Source: a virus
Reading direction: 5' to 3' (one strand)
Length of the DNA stretch: 40,155 nucleotides
Virus record (IMG/VR): IMGVR_UViG_3300022827_000020
Span: 1 to 40,155 of that record
Positions 1,480 to 39,917 of this stretch are shown here, piece by piece. The position numbers and the translations under genes are program-made. The notes under the pieces are model-generated. The model had not been told where the DNA came from. It saw only the letters and a program-made list of their open reading frames with translations, and ran no database searches. How positions within the stretch are numbered: the first letter of the stretch is position 1; every line of letters begins with the position of its first letter.

Positions 1480-4400
1480 TTACTTATCTTTATTAAAGTT
1501 GCTTGGCCCTGCAAACGTTTTTCTTTTAAAAACTCTTTGTCCTCCAATTTTTTTAGTCTTTTTATCGGCACTATAATCAAAATCCTCATCTCTAAAGTCT
1601 TGCTTCTTACTTTCAAGTTCTCTTAATATTAATTTTTCTTCATTAAAAGTATTAAACCAATCTGAATTTTCTCCAAAAGATTCTTCCCAAGAGGCTCTGT
1701 CGTACCTTTTCATCTCTGTTTCGTTTTGGTATTCTCCAAGAAGCTGAAGTTTCTGTTCTTTTATCTCGCTTGATTTTTCAAGTCTTTCTTCTTTCTCCTC
1801 AGGAGTTTCGCTATCTATTCTGTCTATTCTTTGTTGAATAATTGCCTCTACATCAGAATCTCTCGTATTTTCCATCATTTCTCTTAGGATTTCAATATCA
1901 CGATTGTCATCTATCTCGGACTGCTCGGCTTTTTCTTCTTTTCGTGCAGCTTCATCATAATCGACAGGTTTCTTTTTAGCAGTTTTCACAGCGCCTCTAA
2001 CTAAACCTGCAAACTCGGCAGTACCTAAACCAAGGTTTGTTATTATAGCAGGCCCTATCAATAGCTGTAAAGCCTCTTGGTCATCTTCTGATATTTGCTT
2101 TTCGTTACCAAAATCATCTTCGTACACACCTGTTACAGATAAAGAGATTAAATCATGGAGCTGAGAAGCCCTGTCAAGAGCTATTCCATACATACCTAGA
2201 TTTTTAACAAAGTCTTGCTTTCTAGTACCATAAATAGATAGCCTCTCCTCTTCGCTAACGCCCATTGCATCGTTTACTGTATTAAGTAGCCCGGAAGCTC
2301 CTGTTTGAACAAACATATCAAGCATAGGCACAGGAGAGAAAAAGTCTATAACACCACCTGTAACTTGCCCTTTAATAATATTGTTTATTCTCTTCTCCTC
2401 TTCCTCTTCGCTTTCAGTTCGTCCCATTACCTCTAGTACTACGTATCCCATTGATATTGAAATACCTGCTGATATTGTTCTAAAGGTAAAAACCTCAGCC
2501 GCAAACCCTGCAAGAGACCTTGCAGCGATTACCTTATCTTCTCTTGTAGAAACATTCCAATATCCTAGTGTTGAAAGGTCTGCGCCTACTCTTGATGATT
2601 GGTTCATTCTAAAACTAGCAAAAGGCATAAGAAGCTTGACGATTGCCTCTTTACCTGTTTCTCTTGAAGAGAACAAAGCACCGGAAAGCGCCATATCCGA
2701 AACGTTTTGCTGTCTGTCTACCATTCTCTGAGCATAGTTTGCTGCTTTCTCATTGGGGATGTGAGTAGAATAATTTAATCCCTTCACATCAATGCCTTGC
2801 TTCTTTAATGATTGCTCGTAATACGCTGCCCAAGATGCTCTTGCAATTGCTACATCAGGATTTACTAACAATAATTGTAACATCTTTTTGTTGGCATTTT
2901 CTATTAGTTTCATTGCTTCGCCTAATTTTGAATCGGCTGCCTGTTCAATAAGTGAGTTTATAGAATCTATATCTGCTGTAGATTCAACACCTCTATTGGA
3001 AATACCATATCCCAAATTGTTAAGCCATATATTAAAAGCAGGGTCATAAGCCTTACCTAAATTTAAACTGCCTGCATTTATAAGAGTGTTTACGGCTGCA
3101 GGGATTACTTGTTTTATAGGCTGAGTAACACCTGCTAATGCCTGTCCAACTCCAAGAGTAGCCACCTTGTTTAAGCCTCTCATAAAATTAGAAAGCTCAT
3201 CGTTTGAGTAAGGGCTTTTGTTTCTTATGTTTCTAATGTATAATTCTATTCTACCTTTTAGTAAATTAGCATCTGCTGTATTTGGTATTATTTTAGAGAA
3301 ACTATTAGAATTTAGAAAAGCTTGTACCTGTCTTAAAGGCCCTGCAGTTTCAATATCTACAAGCGCATCATACAAGGCACTAGCATTGTTCTTATCAAAA
3401 GATAAATCTATATAGGACAAAACCTTTTTATTGCTGTTTTGAGGAAGATTAGCTGTCTCTGTAACAGCTTCTAGTCGCCCTGTGTTCTTATTGTACAAAA
3501 CGCCATTTGTATTAAAAATAAAAGCCGATTCAGTTTCAAGTAAATCTACCTCCTTTGGAGCGCTTCTCATCCGTGTATATTTGTCAGGAGAACTATAGTT
3601 TACCCCTTTCTTTAATACTTTATTGTACACATTTAATGCAACATCAGCTAATCTATCAAACTTGCTTTCCCATATTTTACTCCAAGCATCAATTGCCTCT
3701 AAGTTTATAGGGTCTGTGTTGTCCTTGATGTCCTGAATGTTTGTTGAGTTAACAAGGATTTTGGCGTAAAGCTTCTGATAAAGAAGACCTTTTTCAACTT
3801 CTTGAGCATCTCCCTTAGCCAATGCTTCTATTGATTGCTCAATTAATCCCTTACGTCTATTAAATTCGGCTTGCATTTGCTCTACGTCTCCAATTATGTT
3901 CCTCATCATAAATGAGGACATCTCTCTTTCCGTGTCATTGTAGGCAGTGTTAAACTTTTGTCCGTTAGGCTTTATATTGTTTTTATAAAACCTACTGACA
4001 TAATCTTTTATTATGCTATTGGCATTATTTTCTGCAAAAGCTTTCTTGTTTATTAGCTTTGTTAAGCCCATTGAGTCTTGAACATCTCCTCCTCTTGTAA
4101 ATCCTTTAAATAGCTTTTCAAATACTAGAGATAAGTTAGTTGTTTGTTCCGCAAGAACTCTTCCAACTCCTTCTGAGAAATACTTTTTTAATGTGATAGC
4201 AGAAATACCGTCTGCTGCTACTTCTTGAGCGTTAATCTCTCCCATATAAGAGAAATATACCGCAGACATCCCCGCAGTAGAATTGTTCACTAAGAAGTTG
4301 AGAAGGCTATCAACGGCTCCTATAGAAACCTTTGAGCTCATCTTGTCAGTGTCCATTTCTAAAAATTGTAATATAACATTCTTTTCAGAAGCTGAATATT

Positions 4401-7400
4401 TAACGTCATCTCCTGTCATAGGGTCAAATCCATTTTCTATTGCAAATAGAATCCTCTTTTTATATACCTCGAACGCTTCCTTTATAGCTTCTTTTACAAT
4501 TTCATCATTCTTCTCGGACATTGGCTCGTCCTTAGTTAATAATGCAGTCATTTCCGCTTCACTAAAAGAGGAGGCATTAATCCCATAAAGGCTTTCAATC
4601 TCAGCAATTTTTTCGTCCTTTAAAATCTTCTCTTGTCTTTTAATCTCTGCTGAAACATATTTGTTGGCATCCTTTATATTTACCGTATCGGCAAAAGCAA
4701 CCTTTGGATTTTTAATTGAGGAGCCTTGTATGGCTGTTTTAATCTCTTGAGCCATTTTGTTGTACGCCTCAATATCTTCTACAAGCAAAGGGTTTATTTC
4801 TGTAAATGCAGCCCCTAAATCTCTTAGGTTTGCATTTTTCTTATCATTTTTTGATAGTTTTTTAATTGAAGCCCTTGTTTTTTTAGCAATATCAACATTA
4901 CTAGCGTAGTCTGCATTTTTAAATACCTTGGTCATGTAGTCTGTGAATCTTTGAACAGAAGTTTCGCTGAAAACATTGACCTTGCTAAAGGCTCTAAGAA
5001 CGTTGGCCGCCTGTGTAGACGTAATTTTGCCTGTCTTTTTAAGTTCTTTTATTTCTTTTGAAAGCTGATTGCTTGCTAACCTAAACGCACGAACCGCGTC
5101 TTTCGCACCTCTAGCCAAATCTTTAATTTGCTTTTTTAATGCGGTCTTCTCAGTCATTGTTATTTTGGTGACATTTTTAATTGTACCAAGTATTCTACCA
5201 ACTGAAGGAGCAGACTTCTCTTTTAATCCAAAGTCTTTTCTTATTTTACGAACCAATGCCTCTCTCTGCACGTCTGTGGCGTTTTCGTAGACTTTCGAGC
5301 CCATAACATAGCTCATAACATTATCGACCATCTTTTGAGCGCTAACTCTTCTGCTCTTAGATTTTTTAACAATACCATCAACCTCAACTATCATCCTGTC
5401 GAATCCGGGGAGCTCAGCTTCAGAAAGACCCTGTGTCTTTGAAGGTGCTACTGAAGGCGCAGGTGGTGCTACTGAAGGCGCAGGTGGTGCTACTAAAGGC
5501 GCAGGTGGTGCTACTAAAGGCGCAGGTGGTGCTACTAAAGGCGCAGGTGGTGCTACTAAAGGCGCAGGTGGGGCAGATGGTATTGTTGCTTGTGTCTTTG
5601 AAGACACTTCTTCTTGTATATTTGAATCGCCATCGTCTTGCATATCATCAGCTCTTCCTTCTGTCCAAGTTGCCTCAGGCATTAGTCCTGTCTTTTGGTC
5701 TGCAAAAACAGTGTCGTCTGCATTTGCATTTCTGTTGGCTTCTCCAAATGGGCCGAAGTTTACCCAAGAGTTTTGACCTCTTGTTTCACTAGTCATAGCA
5801 GCAATAGCACTTCCCGTATATAATCTAACGTGAGCTTGCCAAGCATTTTCTTCTCCCCTTGCTCTAAATCCTGCTCCCTCTAGTCCGTGTCCAAAAGCAT
5901 CGTGAACCGCACGAAACAAATCGTTAGCCAATACGGGTCTCATTTCCCCATCTAGTCCTCCAAGGGGCCACATAATCCCCGTAAATTCTAATAAAGGATT
6001 ACTACTTACATCAAGCTCGCTTGTGCCAAAACCAGACGTGGTAGGAAAAACTCCCATTTGTTTGTTTGCTCTTAAATCCCTTGAAGCATTGTATGGGCTT
6101 GACGCGTACTCTAAGTTGCTTGGGATATTTAAGTCCATAAACCAAAACTTATACCCCGCATCGACTAATGCTTGATATTGAGCCATTGTTTGTTTAATTA
6201 GATTTTGGTATGCTTCCTTGACTGTAGGGTCTTGAGCATTATCTTCCATTTGGATATAAGCCTCGGCTATTTTTTTAGCTCTTGCCTCGTCTACTTCAAC
6301 GTATTCCCCTTGTCTTTTAAGTTCGATTCCGTTTGCTTTTGCATATGCTTCGGCAACGGCAACAAGCTGTGTGTCCGGCCCGTTAACGCCTTGTACTGAT
6401 GGCGCACCTTCAAGAGGCGTAGCTCCCCTGCTCTTATCCCGTCTTCCTCCGTCTCTTGTTCCTTCGGGTCGTAACTGCTTTGTTGTTTCATTTTGTGTGT
6501 TTGTTATAGGTTGTGTATTTTCTGTTTGAATTGTTTCTAAAAGAGGAGTAATTAGCTTGTCATATTTTTCATAAATCTCGTCAAACTTAGCCTTATCTTC
6601 TACGTTAGTTATTTTGCTCTCGTCAACTTTTTCGTCTACAAGGTATTCTTCAAAGTTAGGGAAAGCTTCTCTAAGTTCAAGTTGTTCAGCTGCCCTTAAA
6701 GCCTCAATTTCATTTTCTATTTGTTTATCGAATAAGGACTCTACGGCTCTAGTTATGTCTGTTTCTATACCTGCTGCTTTGTCTGCATGGTAGGCTTCTG
6801 AAATTATATCATTTAACCCATTTTCGCCTGTGTATAATTCAGAAAATTGTTTATCAGGAATTAATGAGGCAAATACTATTTCGCCTGTACTTTCTCCAAT
6901 TTCCCGTAACTTTTTAACAGTACTTTCTACATCTTGTAATGCAGGGTTTTTTTGTTTAGTAGGGCTAACCTGTTCTGCGCTTAGTGCTTGTAATTCAGCA
7001 ACGGCATCCTCTCTACTCAAGGTGGTTTCCCCAATAGTTATAGTGCCATCTGTATTTTCAGGTTGGGCAATAGCTTCTTCTAACTCTGCTTTTCTTACTG
7101 ACTGCTCTTCTGTTAAGGTTTCTGCTACAGTGACAATGGCATTAATCTGTTCTGCGTTTATCACTTGTAGTTCAGCAACGGCATCCTCTCTACTCAAGGT
7201 GGTTTCCCCAATAGTTATAGTGCCATCTGTATTTTCAGGTTGAGAAATAGCCTCCTCTAACTCTGCTTTTCTTACTGACTGCTCTTCTGTTAAGGTCTCT
7301 GAAATATTAGCATCTTCTTGTACTTCGCTTATTAAAGTCAACTCAGAATTTATTGAGTCTATCCGTTCTTTTTGTTTCACAACCAACTTAGGTTCCTTTC

Positions 7401-9747
7401 CTTCAATAAAGCTTTCTAAGTCTCTCTTTTCTTGTAGTAAATTTAAAGCCTGCTTTTTTTGATTTGAATTAAGGCCTTCTGGTAGTTCTCTAAATAATCC
7501 AACTGATTTTCTGTAATCGTTAAGTTGTTTTTTCGCTTCACCCACTGTTAAAACTCCGTCAGTGATTTTTAACTTTAACGCAGCTACAAAAGAATTTTGC
7601 ATAGTTTCGTCATTTGCCATGGCTGAAAAAGCCTCAACCGTAGCATCATCCATTTTCAAAAATCCTTTCTTACTATAGGCCGCACCTACCGAAGATGGTA
7701 CTCCTAATATAAAAGCTCCAACTGCTTCTTGAGCTCCTGCAAGGACAATGTCATTTATCCACTCTATAGCTGTGTCAGGAGTTTCAAACATTTCTTTTCC
7801 CTTAATCGTATTGTAAATTTCTTTTATCCCTATTGCTGAAAATTCTTGGAGAGCACCTGTCTCGGCCTCAGCAAGTCCTGCAGACCCTAAAGTCAAAAGG
7901 CCTTTGGCTATTTTACTTTCTACTTCGTTTTCTACTATTTCTGCAAAAGTTTTTCCTGCGGTTCTAGCACTTGATTTACCAAGAGCGCTTACTGTAATCC
8001 TATTAATAAGCCCCGAACTCCCTTTTATATTTCTAAGTCCAAAATTCTCTAAAACAGCACCTGTAATGCCTATAGGTAAAATAACACCTAGTTTTTCATT
8101 TTCAGAAATATTATCCATTTCAGGATTAGTATCCATTTCTTGCCTAACGCCATCAGAGATTTGAGCATACATTTGAGCTGTTCGCTGAGCCCAACCTGCA
8201 GGCCCCACACCCCCAATAACTGCAGGTAAAGACTTGGTAACGCCTAAAATTGCGCCTCCCCAAAAACCTTGTTCTTTTAATTGACCAAACTCTACAGTGG
8301 TTGCAGAACTTCCAAAAACTTCCCTGTTACCTCTTCTTATATCAGGTATTACATCCTTCTTGAATGATTTTTTAATAAAGTCATCAGTCTCGTCTTCAAT
8401 ATTATCTTGAAGGTCTTCCGATAATGATGATTTCCATTGAGCATACGATTGAGATTCTAAAGGAGGAGAGATTCTGAGTTTTTTAGAAATTATAATTGCA
8501 CTTGCTTTTAGATTTTCTTCAGTCATTGCCATTTCGTTAGGAGCTATTTCAGTACCTACATCTATCAATACGTCAGAAAGTCCTGCGGTAATGCCTGCAA
8601 ACCCATCTGCAAGAGCATTTCCTATAGCGCCTACCCATGACCCTTGCTCAGCCTTGTATGCAGTGTACTTGCCTATTGACTTTTCTAATAAAACTTCTCT
8701 ATATTTTATGTTCTCTTGTTTGTTGACTAAGTCTACTCTCTGAGCCTCTAATAAGGTTTTGCCATCTATATACTCTTGACTCAAAGGGTCTAGTAAATCT
8801 AATTCTTTTTTACTAGATAAAAATCCTTTAAGCTCCGTGTTTAAAACAGTTGATTCTTTAGCTATTTTACTAATTGAAGAATCAACATCTTTTCGGGTGT
8901 TTAGTTTTTTGTTGTCATCAGTATAGGCTCTTTCAATTACATAGAGCCCCTTACTAGGAGTGTTTGTTTTTATAAATTGTTTTAAAACATTTGATTGCGC
9001 AACGGCTTTTGAATTAAAGAATGGGTCTAAAGAGATTTCTTTTTTTGTCTTTCCATCAGGGGCAGTTACAATCATTGAATCTCCTATTCCTGTTTCCTCA
9101 AAGGTAAAGCCAAGTTCTTTGAATTGGTAATTTAATTCAGGAACAACATATTCTTCGGTTTGATTTATAAGCTTAGGAGTTATAGTTGCTAACCTTTCGT
9201 TTAAGTATTTGCTTTTATTTTTGTCTATTTCTACAGAACCTGTTGCTAAAAATTCTTTTTCAAACTTTTGTTTTTTTTCTTTTAACTTGGCTTCATTTAA
9301 TTTTACAGTGGTTGTTGATTCTTTAAGCTCTTCCAAAGATACTGAAAGCTTATCTTTTGCAGATTTTTTTATATTAGTGTTTCCTTCGGAAAAACTTGCT
9401 AAAAATTCTTTGTCAATATTTTTCCTGTTGTTTGTAGGTTGAGTAGCCGAAGAACCACCTGCCGAAGATAATCCCGTAGGAACTGCTTCTTTCTGTTGAG
9501 GCAATTCTGAGTCCAATGAAAACTTTTTTTTTTGAACAGGTTTTGCTATTCTTACGTCATTTACAAATTGACCAACAGGTTTTTTATTGGTAGCTTCATC
9601 TTTACTTGAAAGCCAAGTGTGCATTTTAGTTGCATAATCCTTCTCTTGAATTTTTGCTTTGAATTGGTCATAAGAATATCTTCCCTCGTAAGAAGGGTCA
9701 TTCCCTTTTATCAAAGCATATAAGTCTTGTAAATATTTCTCGTCCAT
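1480..9747 (-). CDS. Giant internal virion (ejection) protein, T7 gp16-position, with embedded enzyme-like domain
   Basis: A 2755-residue protein, about twice T7 gp16, and last in the tail operon after gp13-, gp14- and gp15-position genes; this order suggests DNA ejection and channel formation. Regions: an N-terminal module (1-65); a Lys/Glu-rich probable coiled coil (about 130-360); a Gly/Ala-rich hydrophobic region (370-700) that could insert in membranes; a 59-residue tandem repeat (816-926); a distinct domain at about 1119-1370 with HDAFGHG (His1282, His1287), EENAW and SETRGQNS (Glu1321); a Pro-rich linker (about 1392-1435); a long helical region; hydrophobic segments near 2200-2480; and a charged tail. 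No SLT transglycosylase motif was recognised near the N-terminus, unlike T7 gp16. The ATG at 9745-9747 follows the upstream stop by 12 bases. Domain fusion as in phage polyvalent proteins is an alternative view. Confidence 0.75.
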   Translation of the reverse strand: MDEKYLQDLYALIKGNDPSYEGRYSYDQFKAKIQEKDYATKMHTWLSSKDEATNKKPVGQFVNDVRIAKPVQKKKFSLDSELPQQKEAVPTGLSSAGGSSATQPTNNRKNIDKEFLASFSEGNTNIKKSAKDKLSVSLEELKESTTTVKLNEAKLKEKKQKFEKEFLATGSVEIDKNKSKYLNERLATITPKLINQTEEYVVPELNYQFKELGFTFEETGIGDSMIVTAPDGKTKKEISLDPFFNSKAVAQSNVLKQFIKTNTPSKGLYVIERAYTDDNKKLNTRKDVDSSISKIAKESTVLNTELKGFLSSKKELDLLDPLSQEYIDGKTLLEAQRVDLVNKQENIKYREVLLEKSIGKYTAYKAEQGSWVGAIGNALADGFAGITAGLSDVLIDVGTEIAPNEMAMTEENLKASAIIISKKLRISPPLESQSYAQWKSSLSEDLQDNIEDETDDFIKKSFKKDVIPDIRRGNREVFGSSATTVEFGQLKEQGFWGGAILGVTKSLPAVIGGVGPAGWAQRTAQMYAQISDGVRQEMDTNPEMDNISENEKLGVILPIGITGAVLENFGLRNIKGSSGLINRITVSALGKSSARTAGKTFAEIVENEVESKIAKGLLTLGSAGLAEAETGALQEFSAIGIKEIYNTIKGKEMFETPDTAIEWINDIVLAGAQEAVGAFILGVPSSVGAAYSKKGFLKMDDATVEAFSAMANDETMQNSFVAALKLKITDGVLTVGEAKKQLNDYRKSVGLFRELPEGLNSNQKKQALNLLQEKRDLESFIEGKEPKLVVKQKERIDSINSELTLISEVQEDANISETLTEEQSVRKAELEEAISQPENTDGTITIGETTLSREDAVAELQVINAEQINAIVTVAETLTEEQSVRKAELEEAIAQPENTDGTITIGETTLSREDAVAELQALSAEQVSPTKQKNPALQDVESTVKKLREIGESTGEIVFASLIPDKQFSELYTGENGLNDIISEAYHADKAAGIETDITRAVESLFDKQIENEIEALRAAEQLELREAFPNFEEYLVDEKVDESKITNVEDKAKFDEIYEKYDKLITPLLETIQTENTQPITNTQNETTKQLRPEGTRDGGRRDKSRGATPLEGAPSVQGVNGPDTQLVAVAEAYAKANGIELKRQGEYVEVDEARAKKIAEAYIQMEDNAQDPTVKEAYQNLIKQTMAQYQALVDAGYKFWFMDLNIPSNLEYASSPYNASRDLRANKQMGVFPTTSGFGTSELDVSSNPLLEFTGIMWPLGGLDGEMRPVLANDLFRAVHDAFGHGLEGAGFRARGEENAWQAHVRLYTGSAIAAMTSETRGQNSWVNFGPFGEANRNANADDTVFADQKTGLMPEATWTEGRADDMQDDGDSNIQEEVSSKTQATIPSAPPAPLVAPPAPLVAPPAPLVAPPAPLVAPPAPSVAPPAPSVAPSKTQGLSEAELPGFDRMIVEVDGIVKKSKSRRVSAQKMVDNVMSYVMGSKVYENATDVQREALVRKIRKDFGLKEKSAPSVGRILGTIKNVTKITMTEKTALKKQIKDLARGAKDAVRAFRLASNQLSKEIKELKKTGKITSTQAANVLRAFSKVNVFSETSVQRFTDYMTKVFKNADYASNVDIAKKTRASIKKLSKNDKKNANLRDLGAAFTEINPLLVEDIEAYNKMAQEIKTAIQGSSIKNPKVAFADTVNIKDANKYVSAEIKRQEKILKDEKIAEIESLYGINASSFSEAEMTALLTKDEPMSEKNDEIVKEAIKEAFEVYKKRILFAIENGFDPMTGDDVKYSASEKNVILQFLEMDTDKMSSKVSIGAVDSLLNFLVNNSTAGMSAVYFSYMGEINAQEVAADGISAITLKKYFSEGVGRVLAEQTTNLSLVFEKLFKGFTRGGDVQDSMGLTKLINKKAFAENNANSIIKDYVSRFYKNNIKPNGQKFNTAYNDTEREMSSFMMRNIIGDVEQMQAEFNRRKGLIEQSIEALAKGDAQEVEKGLLYQKLYAKILVNSTNIQDIKDNTDPINLEAIDAWSKIWESKFDRLADVALNVYNKVLKKGVNYSSPDKYTRMRSAPKEVDLLETESAFIFNTNGVLYNKNTGRLEAVTETANLPQNSNKKVLSYIDLSFDKNNASALYDALVDIETAGPLRQVQAFLNSNSFSKIIPNTADANLLKGRIELYIRNIRNKSPYSNDELSNFMRGLNKVATLGVGQALAGVTQPIKQVIPAAVNTLINAGSLNLGKAYDPAFNIWLNNLGYGISNRGVESTADIDSINSLIEQAADSKLGEAMKLIENANKKMLQLLLVNPDVAIARASWAAYYEQSLKKQGIDVKGLNYSTHIPNEKAANYAQRMVDRQQNVSDMALSGALFSSRETGKEAIVKLLMPFASFRMNQSSRVGADLSTLGYWNVSTREDKVIAARSLAGFAAEVFTFRTISAGISISMGYVVLEVMGRTESEEEEEKRINNIIKGQVTGGVIDFFSPVPMLDMFVQTGASGLLNTVNDAMGVSEEERLSIYGTRKQDFVKNLGMYGIALDRASQLHDLISLSVTGVYEDDFGNEKQISEDDQEALQLLIGPAIITNLGLGTAEFAGLVRGAVKTAKKKPVDYDEAARKEEKAEQSEIDDNRDIEILREMMENTRDSDVEAIIQQRIDRIDSETPEEKEERLEKSSEIKEQKLQLLGEYQNETEMKRYDRASWEESFGENSDWFNTFNEEKLILRELESKKQDFRDEDFDYSADKKTKKIGGQRVFKRKTFAGPSNFNKDK
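5444..5573. repeat. 21-bp tandem repeat, six copies, encoding Pro/Ala linker
   Basis: The unit GGTGCTACTAAAGGCGCAGG plus T recurs every 21 bases from 5444, with small changes (GAA for AAA in the first two copies). On the coding strand it encodes the heptad PAPLVAP or PAPSVAP inside the giant virion protein, about residues 1392-1435. It separates the enzyme-like domain from the long helical half, so it is probably a flexible or extended linker. The near identity at DNA level suggests slippage and length variation. Confidence 0.9.
6970..7302. repeat. 177-bp tandem duplication inside the giant virion gene
   Basis: Two in-frame copies start at 6970 and 7147 with an exact period of 177 bases (59 residues). 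Each encodes ETLTEEQSVRKAELEEAI, then QPENTDGTITIGETTLSRED and AVAELQ. Long stretches are identical, with about a dozen differences overall, so the duplication looks recent or is maintained by recombination. Protein positions are about 816-926. Confidence 0.9.
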
Positions 9748-37872: not shown

Positions 37873-38317
37873 TCGTAAATTGTTTGTCCTCGATTAGCAT
37901 TGTAAAACCCTGAGCTTTGTCATAGTAGATTTGGTCATCTTTTTTAATGGCCGGATTTACATCTGTGCCTGTCTCGATAATCAAACCACGTTTGTATCTC
38001 ATTTGATTTACGTCATCTCCTGATAAGATTATCCCTGACTCTGTTTTTATTTGCTCGTCAATATTTTTTATTGCGATGTACTTTCCGATTGGTTTCATAT
38101 TGTAATTTTGTTTAGATTCGTCTTTCCAATTTAACCAAAAACCTAAGGCCACAATTATATTCATTCCTAGAGATGAAAGAACCATGGCTAGGTCTTGGTA
38201 AATGTTTAAGGTTAAGTGAACGTGCCCTACCACCCAAAATGGTATTGATAGATTACACGCTACCCAAACTATTGTAAATCTTAAGAATCTTTTAATTTGA
38301 TTCAGATGATTCTCCAT
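37838..38317 (-). CDS. Membrane-anchored GroES-like co-chaperonin
   Basis: A 159-residue protein of two parts. Residues 1-73: a basic N-terminus and two hydrophobic spans (about 14-32, FTIVWVACNLSIPFWVVGHV; and 44-64, AMVLSSLGMNIIVALGFWLN). Residues 74-159 are a complete Cpn10 domain: MKPIGKYIAIKN, the mobile-loop hydrophobic motif GIILSG (95-100), YKRGLIIETG, IKKDDQIYYDKAQG, and a final TIISERDVVVVL. Positive charges before span 1 and two spans would place the GroES part in the cytoplasm. An internal ATG at 38098 could also make a soluble GroES of 86 residues. It overlaps the end of groEL by 26 bases (translational coupling) and converges with the wHTH gene. GroES identity is strong; the fusion is the unusual part. 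Confidence 0.75.
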   Translation of the reverse strand: MENHLNQIKRFLRFTIVWVACNLSIPFWVVGHVHLTLNIYQDLAMVLSSLGMNIIVALGFWLNWKDESKQNYNMKPIGKYIAIKNIDEQIKTESGIILSGDDVNQMRYKRGLIIETGTDVNPAIKKDDQIYYDKAQGFTMLIEDKQFTIISERDVVVVL

Positions 38318-39917
38318 AGCTACGTGCCATTGTTATTGTGGCATTTGTGCTTAGTATAGATACCGCAACACTAACAGCGTTTTGCAAAGCACTCCGGGTT
38401 ACTTTCAACGGGTCAATAATCCCCATCTTTACTAAGTCTCCCATCTGTCCGTTTTTTAGATTGTATCCATGCCCCTGCTCAAGAGGTATATCCCCGTAAA
38501 TGTCCTTTGCCTTTAGACCTGCGTTTGCAAGTATCTGAAGGAATGGAGCCATTAAAGCTTCCTTTACAATCATGCTCGCAACGTCTTTCTCTACGGACTG
38601 CCCTGCTGTTGTGCCTATTACAGCGCTTTCCTCAAGTAATGATTTACCTGCTCCCGGAAGTATGCCCTCCTCAAGTGCAGAACGAACCGAACACACAGCA
38701 TCGTCAACTCTGTCAAATAGCTCCTTTTGGGCTAGGTCTGTTTGACCTCCAACAAATATCACTCCAATACCCCCGGTTAAAGATGCTATGCGCTCTAGTA
38801 TGAAGTCTTTCTCGTTTTTCTTGTTTGCGTTCTTATGTGCCTCCCAAAGCTGAACAACTCTATCAGCAATTACATCTTGGTCTGCTTTTAATGCCGACTT
38901 AATAATAATGGTTTGGTCTTTGCTCACAATTACTTTTGCTGCATGGCCTAAATCGTCAAAGTTAATAATGCTGAGGTCATCTCCTGTTTTCTCACTGAAG
39001 TATGTCGCCCCAACGCTTATTGCAATGTCGTGCATTAGCTCATGCTGCTTGTAACCAAATCCCGGAGGTGGTACAATACATATCTTAGCATTTCCCTTCA
39101 TTACGTTTGCAGCAAAGGTGTTTACAACATTTGAGTTACAAGGGGATATTATTAATAGCTTTTTCCCCTCGCTAATTACAGGCTTTAATACGTTCTCAAT
39201 CTGAAGGATATTACTTATCTCCATGTCAGCAACCAATACCATCACGTCCTCAAAAACACACTCGTCTCTTTTTTGGTCATTAACAAACATTGGGCTCATG
39301 TACCCTCTATCAAACTTAAGCCCCATGGTGGTCTCCGAATAGGTCTCATCTGTTTGGCTCCTCTCCACTGTTACAATACCTGTCTTGCCAACATCTTTAT
39401 AAACGTCAGCAATTATGCGACCTATCTCTCTATCGTTGTTTGCAGAGATGCTGGCCACCTCAATAAGCATAGAACTTGTAACTTTTTTAGCTCTTCGTTT
39501 AAGCCTATCTACAACAGAATTGCTTACATCAACCATAGCACGTAAAACCTCTGTTCGATTGTGTTCTTCTTTTATTCTCTCAAGACCTCCCAATACTAAT
39601 GCCTCTGTAAGTACAATTGCCGTAGTTGTTCCGTCCCCCGCTGAAGTAGCAGTGCGCTCAGCAGCTTCCTTCATCATCTTAACTGCTAAGTTCTCTAATG
39701 GGTCTAGCAACTCAATAGCCTTTGCAACAGTAACACCGTCTTTTGTTACAGTAATCCCATGTGTGTGATTCGGAGACTCTATCAGAACAGTATTACCTCC
39801 CGGCCCTAAAGTGCTTTTTACTGCTTTCGATAGTTTTACTACGCCATTTACTAATTTTTTCCTCCCACTATCCCCAAAATGTAAATCCTTTGGGGAATAT
39901 CCTTGATTTTCTAACAT
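38292..39917 (-). CDS. groEL: Phage GroEL chaperonin (Cpn60)
   Basis: A 541-residue, full-length group I chaperonin. Visible sites: TLGPGG (36-41, with Gly for the usual Lys), TKDGVTVAKAIEL (Asp60), GDGTTTA (94-100, Asp95), FDRGYMSPMFV, ERIASLTGGIGVIFVGG, RVDDAVCSVRSALEEG (third nucleotide-site Asp) and MGIIDPLKVTRSALQ. The GGM repeat tail of bacterial GroEL is replaced by ARSYGESSESN. Its motif differences and gene context (next to a fused GroES and phage late genes) mark it as viral, not host DNA contamination. Phage chaperonins usually fold phage proteins such as capsid subunits in their own cage; the substrate here is unknown. A -7 box lies 26 bases upstream. Confidence 0.95.
   Translation of the reverse strand: MLENQGYSPKDLHFGDSGRKKLVNGVVKLSKAVKSTLGPGGNTVLIESPNHTHGITVTKDGVTVAKAIELLDPLENLAVKMMKEAAERTATSAGDGTTTAIVLTEALVLGGLERIKEEHNRTEVLRAMVDVSNSVVDRLKRRAKKVTSSMLIEVASISANNDREIGRIIADVYKDVGKTGIVTVERSQTDETYSETTMGLKFDRGYMSPMFVNDQKRDECVFEDVMVLVADMEISNILQIENVLKPVISEGKKLLIISPCNSNVVNTFAANVMKGNAKICIVPPPGFGYKQHELMHDIAISVGATYFSEKTGDDLSIINFDDLGHAAKVIVSKDQTIIIKSALKADQDVIADRVVQLWEAHKNANKKNEKDFILERIASLTGGIGVIFVGGQTDLAQKELFDRVDDAVCSVRSALEEGILPGAGKSLLEESAVIGTTAGQSVEKDVASMIVKEALMAPFLQILANAGLKAKDIYGDIPLEQGHGYNLKNGQMGDLVKMGIIDPLKVTRSALQNAVSVAVSILSTNATITMARSYGESSESN

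Follow-up and report, generated by a model that had tools for sequence, protein, structure and literature searches.

The window, by which we mean the whole 40,155-nucleotide stretch of IMG/VR virus record IMGVR_UViG_3300022827_000020, carries on its minus strand a giant ORF that is the sole one of at least 150 aa across positions 5640-6390. Genes adjoining this ORF match PHROGs for terminase, portal and virion structure. A Pfam scan of the entire 2755-aa product returned nothing above cut-off, neither a named polyvalent domain nor PF00351 (Biopterin_H), the model of the pterin-dependent aromatic amino-acid hydroxylases. The features discussed here are listed below, where fractions give the number of family sequences that keep the residue.

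1480-9747, minus strand: giant ORF (2755 aa) that closes the virion-structural gene block
5640-6390, minus strand: conserved domain, residues 1120-1369, with a predicted fold of pLDDT 94.8 and pTM 0.92; phrog_3170 matches at residues 1274-1335
5887-5904, minus strand: HDAFGH, residues 1282-1287 (His1282, Asp1283, His1287), 148/148
5851-5853, minus strand: Glu1299 in GEE, 147/148
5830-5832, minus strand: His1306, 146/148, Gln in the other two
5785-5787, minus strand: Glu1321 in SETRGQNS, 34 residues past His1287, 148/148
5692-5694, minus strand: Lys1352 in DQK, 143/143 of the sequences extending that far
5449-5574, minus strand: Pro-rich repeat linker (APPAPLV)n, residues 1392-1433, just past the domain on its C-terminal side

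Upstream of the conserved domain, the giant protein contains a 59-residue direct repeat (ETLTEEQSVRKAELEEAI...) at residues 817 and 876. The phage window also encodes a GroEL chaperonin (38292-39917, minus strand; phrog_5725, E 2e-129).

The original prediction had described an aromatic amino-acid hydroxylase-like iron motif within a distinct domain bounded by a Pro-rich linker. What it reported from the sequence was accurate, as HDAFGH, the Glu following 34 residues on, the flanking FRAV and EENAW strings and the linker are all found where they were placed. HDAFGH matches the H-[DE]-x-x-G-H iron motif of the hydroxylases, and it is the only H[DE]xxGH match in a six-frame translation of the window (80,306 residues). 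By composition, 0.00017 matches (1.7e-4) would be expected in the giant protein. Of the seven histidines in the entire protein (43, 987, 1282, 1287, 1306, 2329 and 2531), three, at positions 1282, 1287 and 1306, fall within 25 residues. Given the expected number and this clustering, the motif in the giant protein is not a product of chance.

Conservation and spread of the domain family

A profile of the domain gave 204 matches in the collected loci, from which four without coverage of the motif were dropped, and the remaining 200 were reduced to 148 sequences at 90% identity. Asn1275, Arg1279, His1282, Asp1283, His1287, Phe1294, Gly1298 and Glu1321 are invariant in 148/148, although this invariance is inflated in the part of the set fetched with patterns (one part with NDLFRAVH or E[TQ]xGQ, another with VHDYFGHY), because the patterns themselves hold parts of the motif. 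Free of that bias are the 80 loci kept from the viral-contig search with 308 relatives, for which different peptides were used, and the 20 chromosomal loci, found by protein queries; all 11 key columns checked are kept in each of the 20 chromosomal loci. The Gly of H-[DE]-x-x-G-H is present in 145/148 sequences, Tyr1214 in 146/146 and Gln1325 in 147/148. Glu1299 and His1306, which had escaped the original prediction, are nearly as conserved as the three ligands that it named (His1282, His1287 and Glu1321). The two sequences with Gln in place of His1306 are of the cassette type described below, so this histidine is not essential everywhere. The three named ligands are kept in all 148 homologues and in 20/20 further chromosomal loci; since homologues devoid of them are absent from the set, a refutation of the site on that ground fails.

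Relatives are abundant in viral sequences. Among viral contigs, 308 of 314 candidate stretches proved to be relatives (80 kept), and a broader profile yielded at least 593 relatives among the 600 candidates listed, with 80 again kept. About 200 relatives occur among 50,697 phage records, 187 of them in Mycobacterium phages, and a scan of genome contigs identified 18 of 89 candidates as family relatives. Members range from stand-alone proteins of about 190 aa to giant proteins of 3600 aa; stand-alone phage copies include those of Dagobah (188 aa) and Sebata (433 aa). One giant ORF (L010) holds tandem copies of the domain at about residues 2003-2250 and 2331-2577, each with HDAFGH and ETRGQNS. 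Two relatives (L085 and L086) are named 'lysin' or 'crystallin beta/gamma motif-containing protein', names for which the present results offer no support.

The only database family to recognize the domain was phrog_3170, of unknown function (mycobacteriophage cluster C protein, 433 aa), which matches the motif region with E 1.8e-11. It represents the same family as the window domain, and Sebata gp107 is a full-length member. In contrast to the window protein, phrog_3170 is not giant, being a profile of 433 positions, and it covers only our motif region. Among the best 25 of 45 Pfam families for 89 family members there was no credible match, and 0/4 chromosomal members scanned matched NCBIfam. 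A literature search that included the motif strings and the PHROG number returned no description of the family in open-access papers, a scope that leaves most subscription papers uncovered. The domain is thus undescribed, with no Pfam or NCBIfam match and one PHROG without function, and it resides inside a known kind of protein. Gp05 of Acinetobacter phage AS12 (L236:2600-3196, 198 aa), encoded at the left end of its genome, bears NLLYRAVHD and DTVGQ and may be a very distant, statistically weak cousin. It was rejected as a distant member (11 aligned columns, probability 27.5), and because it aligns only at NLLYRAVHD and its edge it was left out of the family counts.

Predicted fold, putative metal site and proposed delivery

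The distinct domain postulated in the original prediction folds confidently in silico. An AF2 model of the window domain built from 89 sequences has the pLDDT and pTM listed above, and that of a chromosomal relative, built from 60 sequences, reached pLDDT 92.4 and pTM 0.90. In both models a short strand precedes three successive helices, which carry the three motif stretches. In the window model, the first helix carries His1282, Asp1283 and His1287, the second Glu1299 and His1306, and the third Glu1321 and Gln1325. We infer a metal centre made up of His1282, His1287 and Glu1321, in which case Glu1299 and His1306 might form a second sphere or be ligands of a second metal. The very strongly conserved phage domain is probably a metal-binding enzyme domain.

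Searches of known structures with either model found no convincing counterpart. In Foldseek against the PDB, none of the 62 matches of the window model and none of the 7 of the chromosomal one reached E <= 0.001. In VIA, one of 317 chains, a phycobilisome chain with Z 2.3, reached Z >= 2 for the window model, as did 0/51 chains for the chromosomal relative. A sequence search of PDB chains with the domain produced nothing useful, and a profile search only designed or unrelated chains. In BFVD there were 21 matches at E <= 0.001, apparently to the same phage family. The absence of a PDB match from these Foldseek and VIA lists is no proof of a new fold.

The setting of the domain resembles that of the polyvalent proteins (Iyer et al. 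2017, PMC5512222), giant multidomain phage proteins whose domain set, in the portions of that article drawn on here, includes LPD38, ART-PolyVal and InPase. At least one of these three was present in 3 of 11 relatives scanned (L034, L087 and L161). The likeness has limits, as our domain matches no Pfam LPD model, the 2755-aa protein itself is without a named polyvalent domain, and the same portions of PMC5512222 do not describe the conserved domain among polyvalent ones. A related protein of Rhodococcus phage E3 is annotated as 'structural protein'. By analogy, these domains in the relatives and the annotation in E3 make it plausible that the giant protein is injected with the genome. Its most likely role would be that of an enzyme which enters the host alongside the DNA and acts early in infection, in host takeover or counter-defence. 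On balance we favour, with some reserve, the view that the domain represents a hitherto undescribed family of enzymes, predicted to be metal-dependent, and that in this phage it forms part of a giant virion protein of polyvalent type.

Candidate activities of the domain

The main rival is a metal-dependent hydrolase, either a gluzincin-like peptidase (HxxxxH plus Glu) or an HD-type phosphohydrolase, which would free parts of the polyvalent protein or act on nucleotides. DPP III peptidases also have HxxxxH plus a Glu, and the DPP III-type metallopeptidase motif is HELLGH, with the catalytic Glu in HExxGH. In our family, the position of this catalytic Glu is taken by Asp in 148/148 sequences, and on this ground a HELLGH-type metallopeptidase was rejected. 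The string HD...GH...GE resembles that of dGTPases, yet the histidine that an HD domain requires upstream of the motif is missing from the 32 most conserved columns, and the downstream acid is Glu, not Asp, in 148/148, so that an HD-domain phosphohydrolase was likewise discarded. Metallopeptidases are frequent in polyvalent proteins and form a common theme of them, according to the parts of PMC5512222 used here. Pfam peptidase or HD models, however, gave nothing at E 0.01 on the window domain and nothing credible among the best 25 families for 89 members, and a peptidase would be ill-suited to the small-molecule sulfur cassette in which bacterial relatives occur. We regard a hydrolase of either kind as unlikely.

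Less probable still, in our judgement, is a non-catalytic domain that aids virion assembly or ejection and in which the conserved set serves as a structural metal or salt-bridge site. Both the position of the domain within a virion-structural gene block and the annotation of the E3 relative would agree with such a role, but these residues are just as invariant where there is no virion, in the stand-alone genes of bacterial biosynthetic clusters and of a methylase/kinase module.

That the domain is a divergent pterin-dependent aromatic amino-acid hydroxylase, as originally proposed, now appears highly improbable. The prediction had counted five of six motif positions as matching; the four letters that H-[DE]-x-x-G-H prescribes do all match, and many bacterial phenylalanine hydroxylases have precisely the hexapeptide HD-x-F-G-H, but the Glu spacing does not agree, being 34 (in ETRGQ) vs 41 by hand count in a bacterial hydroxylase (L203), where the expected context is (V)EFGL. 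Against a set of 18 bacterial hydroxylases from genomes in which PF00351 had found them, the family profile scored 30.0, above 60/60 column-shuffled controls (best 21.2), yet this alignment comprises 33 columns around the hexapeptide with a probability of 15.7, and the Glu ligands fail to pair. PF00351 detected nothing at the relatives' loci in 6/6 genomes bearing them, while it did detect true hydroxylases in two of those genomes. In the structural comparison of residues 1120-1369, two TPH2 chains were among the 62 Foldseek matches with E <= 10, but with E 4.8 and 5.9 and TM 0.17 and 0.15, and their Z is below 2 provided that the 317 chains of the VIA comparison included them; for the model of the chromosomal relative, hydroxylases are absent from both the Foldseek and the VIA match lists. 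Membership of Biopterin_H was therefore rejected, given the lack of PF00351 recognition, a Glu at +34 and a likeness confined to HDxFGH and its edge. The resemblance is one of apparent working principle only, HDxFGH followed by a Glu, and as judged from the sequences the hexapeptide looks like a local solution in common rather than a sign of common descent. The reading that we retain is that of a predicted metal-dependent enzyme of an undescribed family.

Bacterial relatives and their gene neighbourhoods

The chromosomal relatives fall into two groups with different neighbours. In nine loci (L096-L104), from Micromonospora, two Actinomadura, Nocardia, Streptomyces, Phytohabitans, a Streptosporangiaceae bin and two Paraburkholderia, the domain gene is accompanied in 9/9 by genes for a SufS-type desulfurase, a CGL-type (CalE6-like) lyase and a homocysteine S-methyltransferase. 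Of these cassettes, 8/9 also include a SAM methyltransferase and 4/9 an adenosylhomocysteinase. The best PDB match of the cassette lyase is CalE6 of calicheamicin synthesis (E 3e-150, the next protein at 6e-110), and one Micromonospora copy scores 686 bits. The Phytohabitans suffuscus copy of the domain gene (L102; G006:C1:6306830-6307536) matches as two overlapping pieces and may thus be broken or misread. Gp206 of Rhodococcus phage E3 ('putative aminotransferase') was considered as a cassette desulfurase and set aside, its sequence being unlike one by eye.

We searched for DUF1702 (PF08012), an enediyne marker whose genes are labelled 'enediyne biosynthesis protein' in the available part of PMC7692728. 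It lies within 55 kb on the contig of the domain gene in 3 of the 6 cassette genomes searched; the other three are without DUF1702, so the cassette also exists outside enediyne clusters. In 12 of 16 further Micromonospora genomes, DUF1702 shares a contig with the domain gene at a distance of no more than 55 kb; in the other 4 it is on another contig. The same part of PMC7692728 groups the enediyne PKS of Phytohabitans suffuscus, the host of L102, near that of calicheamicin. The calicheamicin sulfur pathway resembles the cassette in that the bacterial relative constantly adjoins a SufS-type desulfurase and the lyase matched best by CalE6. The published account of that pathway, as far as its accessible text goes, does not mention the domain gene and describes the enzymes for sulfur mobilisation and installation as still unknown. 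The CalE6-like lyase and the desulfurase suggest that the cassette may serve to form methyl-polysulfides; in that case, a metal-dependent oxidation or sulfur transfer would be the most economical guess. Judging from the cassette, our best but weak guess is non-haem iron oxidative or thiol-related chemistry.

Within Micromonospora, 17 strong places were found (query included). We examined the neighbourhoods of 11 of these together with 8 of 16 weak places and a second Phytohabitans copy, 20 loci in all. Within about 6 kb on each side, desulfurase and lyase are present in 7/11 strong loci and absent from 4/11. The remaining loci are of a shorter type (L248-L256; eight from Micromonospora genomes and one from Phytohabitans). 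In 9/9 of them the domain gene adjoins that of an N6 DNA methylase (N6_Mtase in Pfam, type I methyltransferase in PADLOC) and in 8/9 that of a Ser/Thr protein kinase; type I-E CRISPR genes are near, with Cas3 inside the stretch in 6/9. Methylase, kinase and Cas3 occur in 0/11 of the strong, cassette-type loci. PADLOC matched the domain itself in L248-L256 to 0 families. The module of N6 methylase, domain and Ser/Thr kinase is a candidate defence locus.

In a FastTree phylogeny of 64 sequences, the cassette group forms one clade with support 1.00, and the methylase-linked group joins the copies of Dagobah and other actinophages, also with support 1.00. Because the tree is midpoint-rooted, it does not settle the direction of transfer.

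Cumulatively, these findings allow a tentative reading that goes beyond the phage domain and that we put forward only as a possibility: a metalloenzyme family with a fold absent from the PDB, spread and carried mainly by phages in injected giant proteins, may have entered bacteria on two or more occasions, in one case to become the missing sulfur-handling enzyme of calicheamicin-type enediyne clusters and in another to form the core of an N6-methylase/kinase module that flanks type I-E CRISPR. At least several hundred viral contigs and about 200 phage records bear the family, yet we found no Pfam or NCBIfam model of it and no function assigned to it. If the reading is true, one reaction would be common to phage attack, bacterial defence and antibiotic synthesis. 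The bacterial relatives offer a handle on sulfur installation in calicheamicin-type enediynes and on the role of the methylase and kinase genes beside type I-E CRISPR in Micromonospora, and the biochemistry of one small stand-alone member would bear on all three settings.
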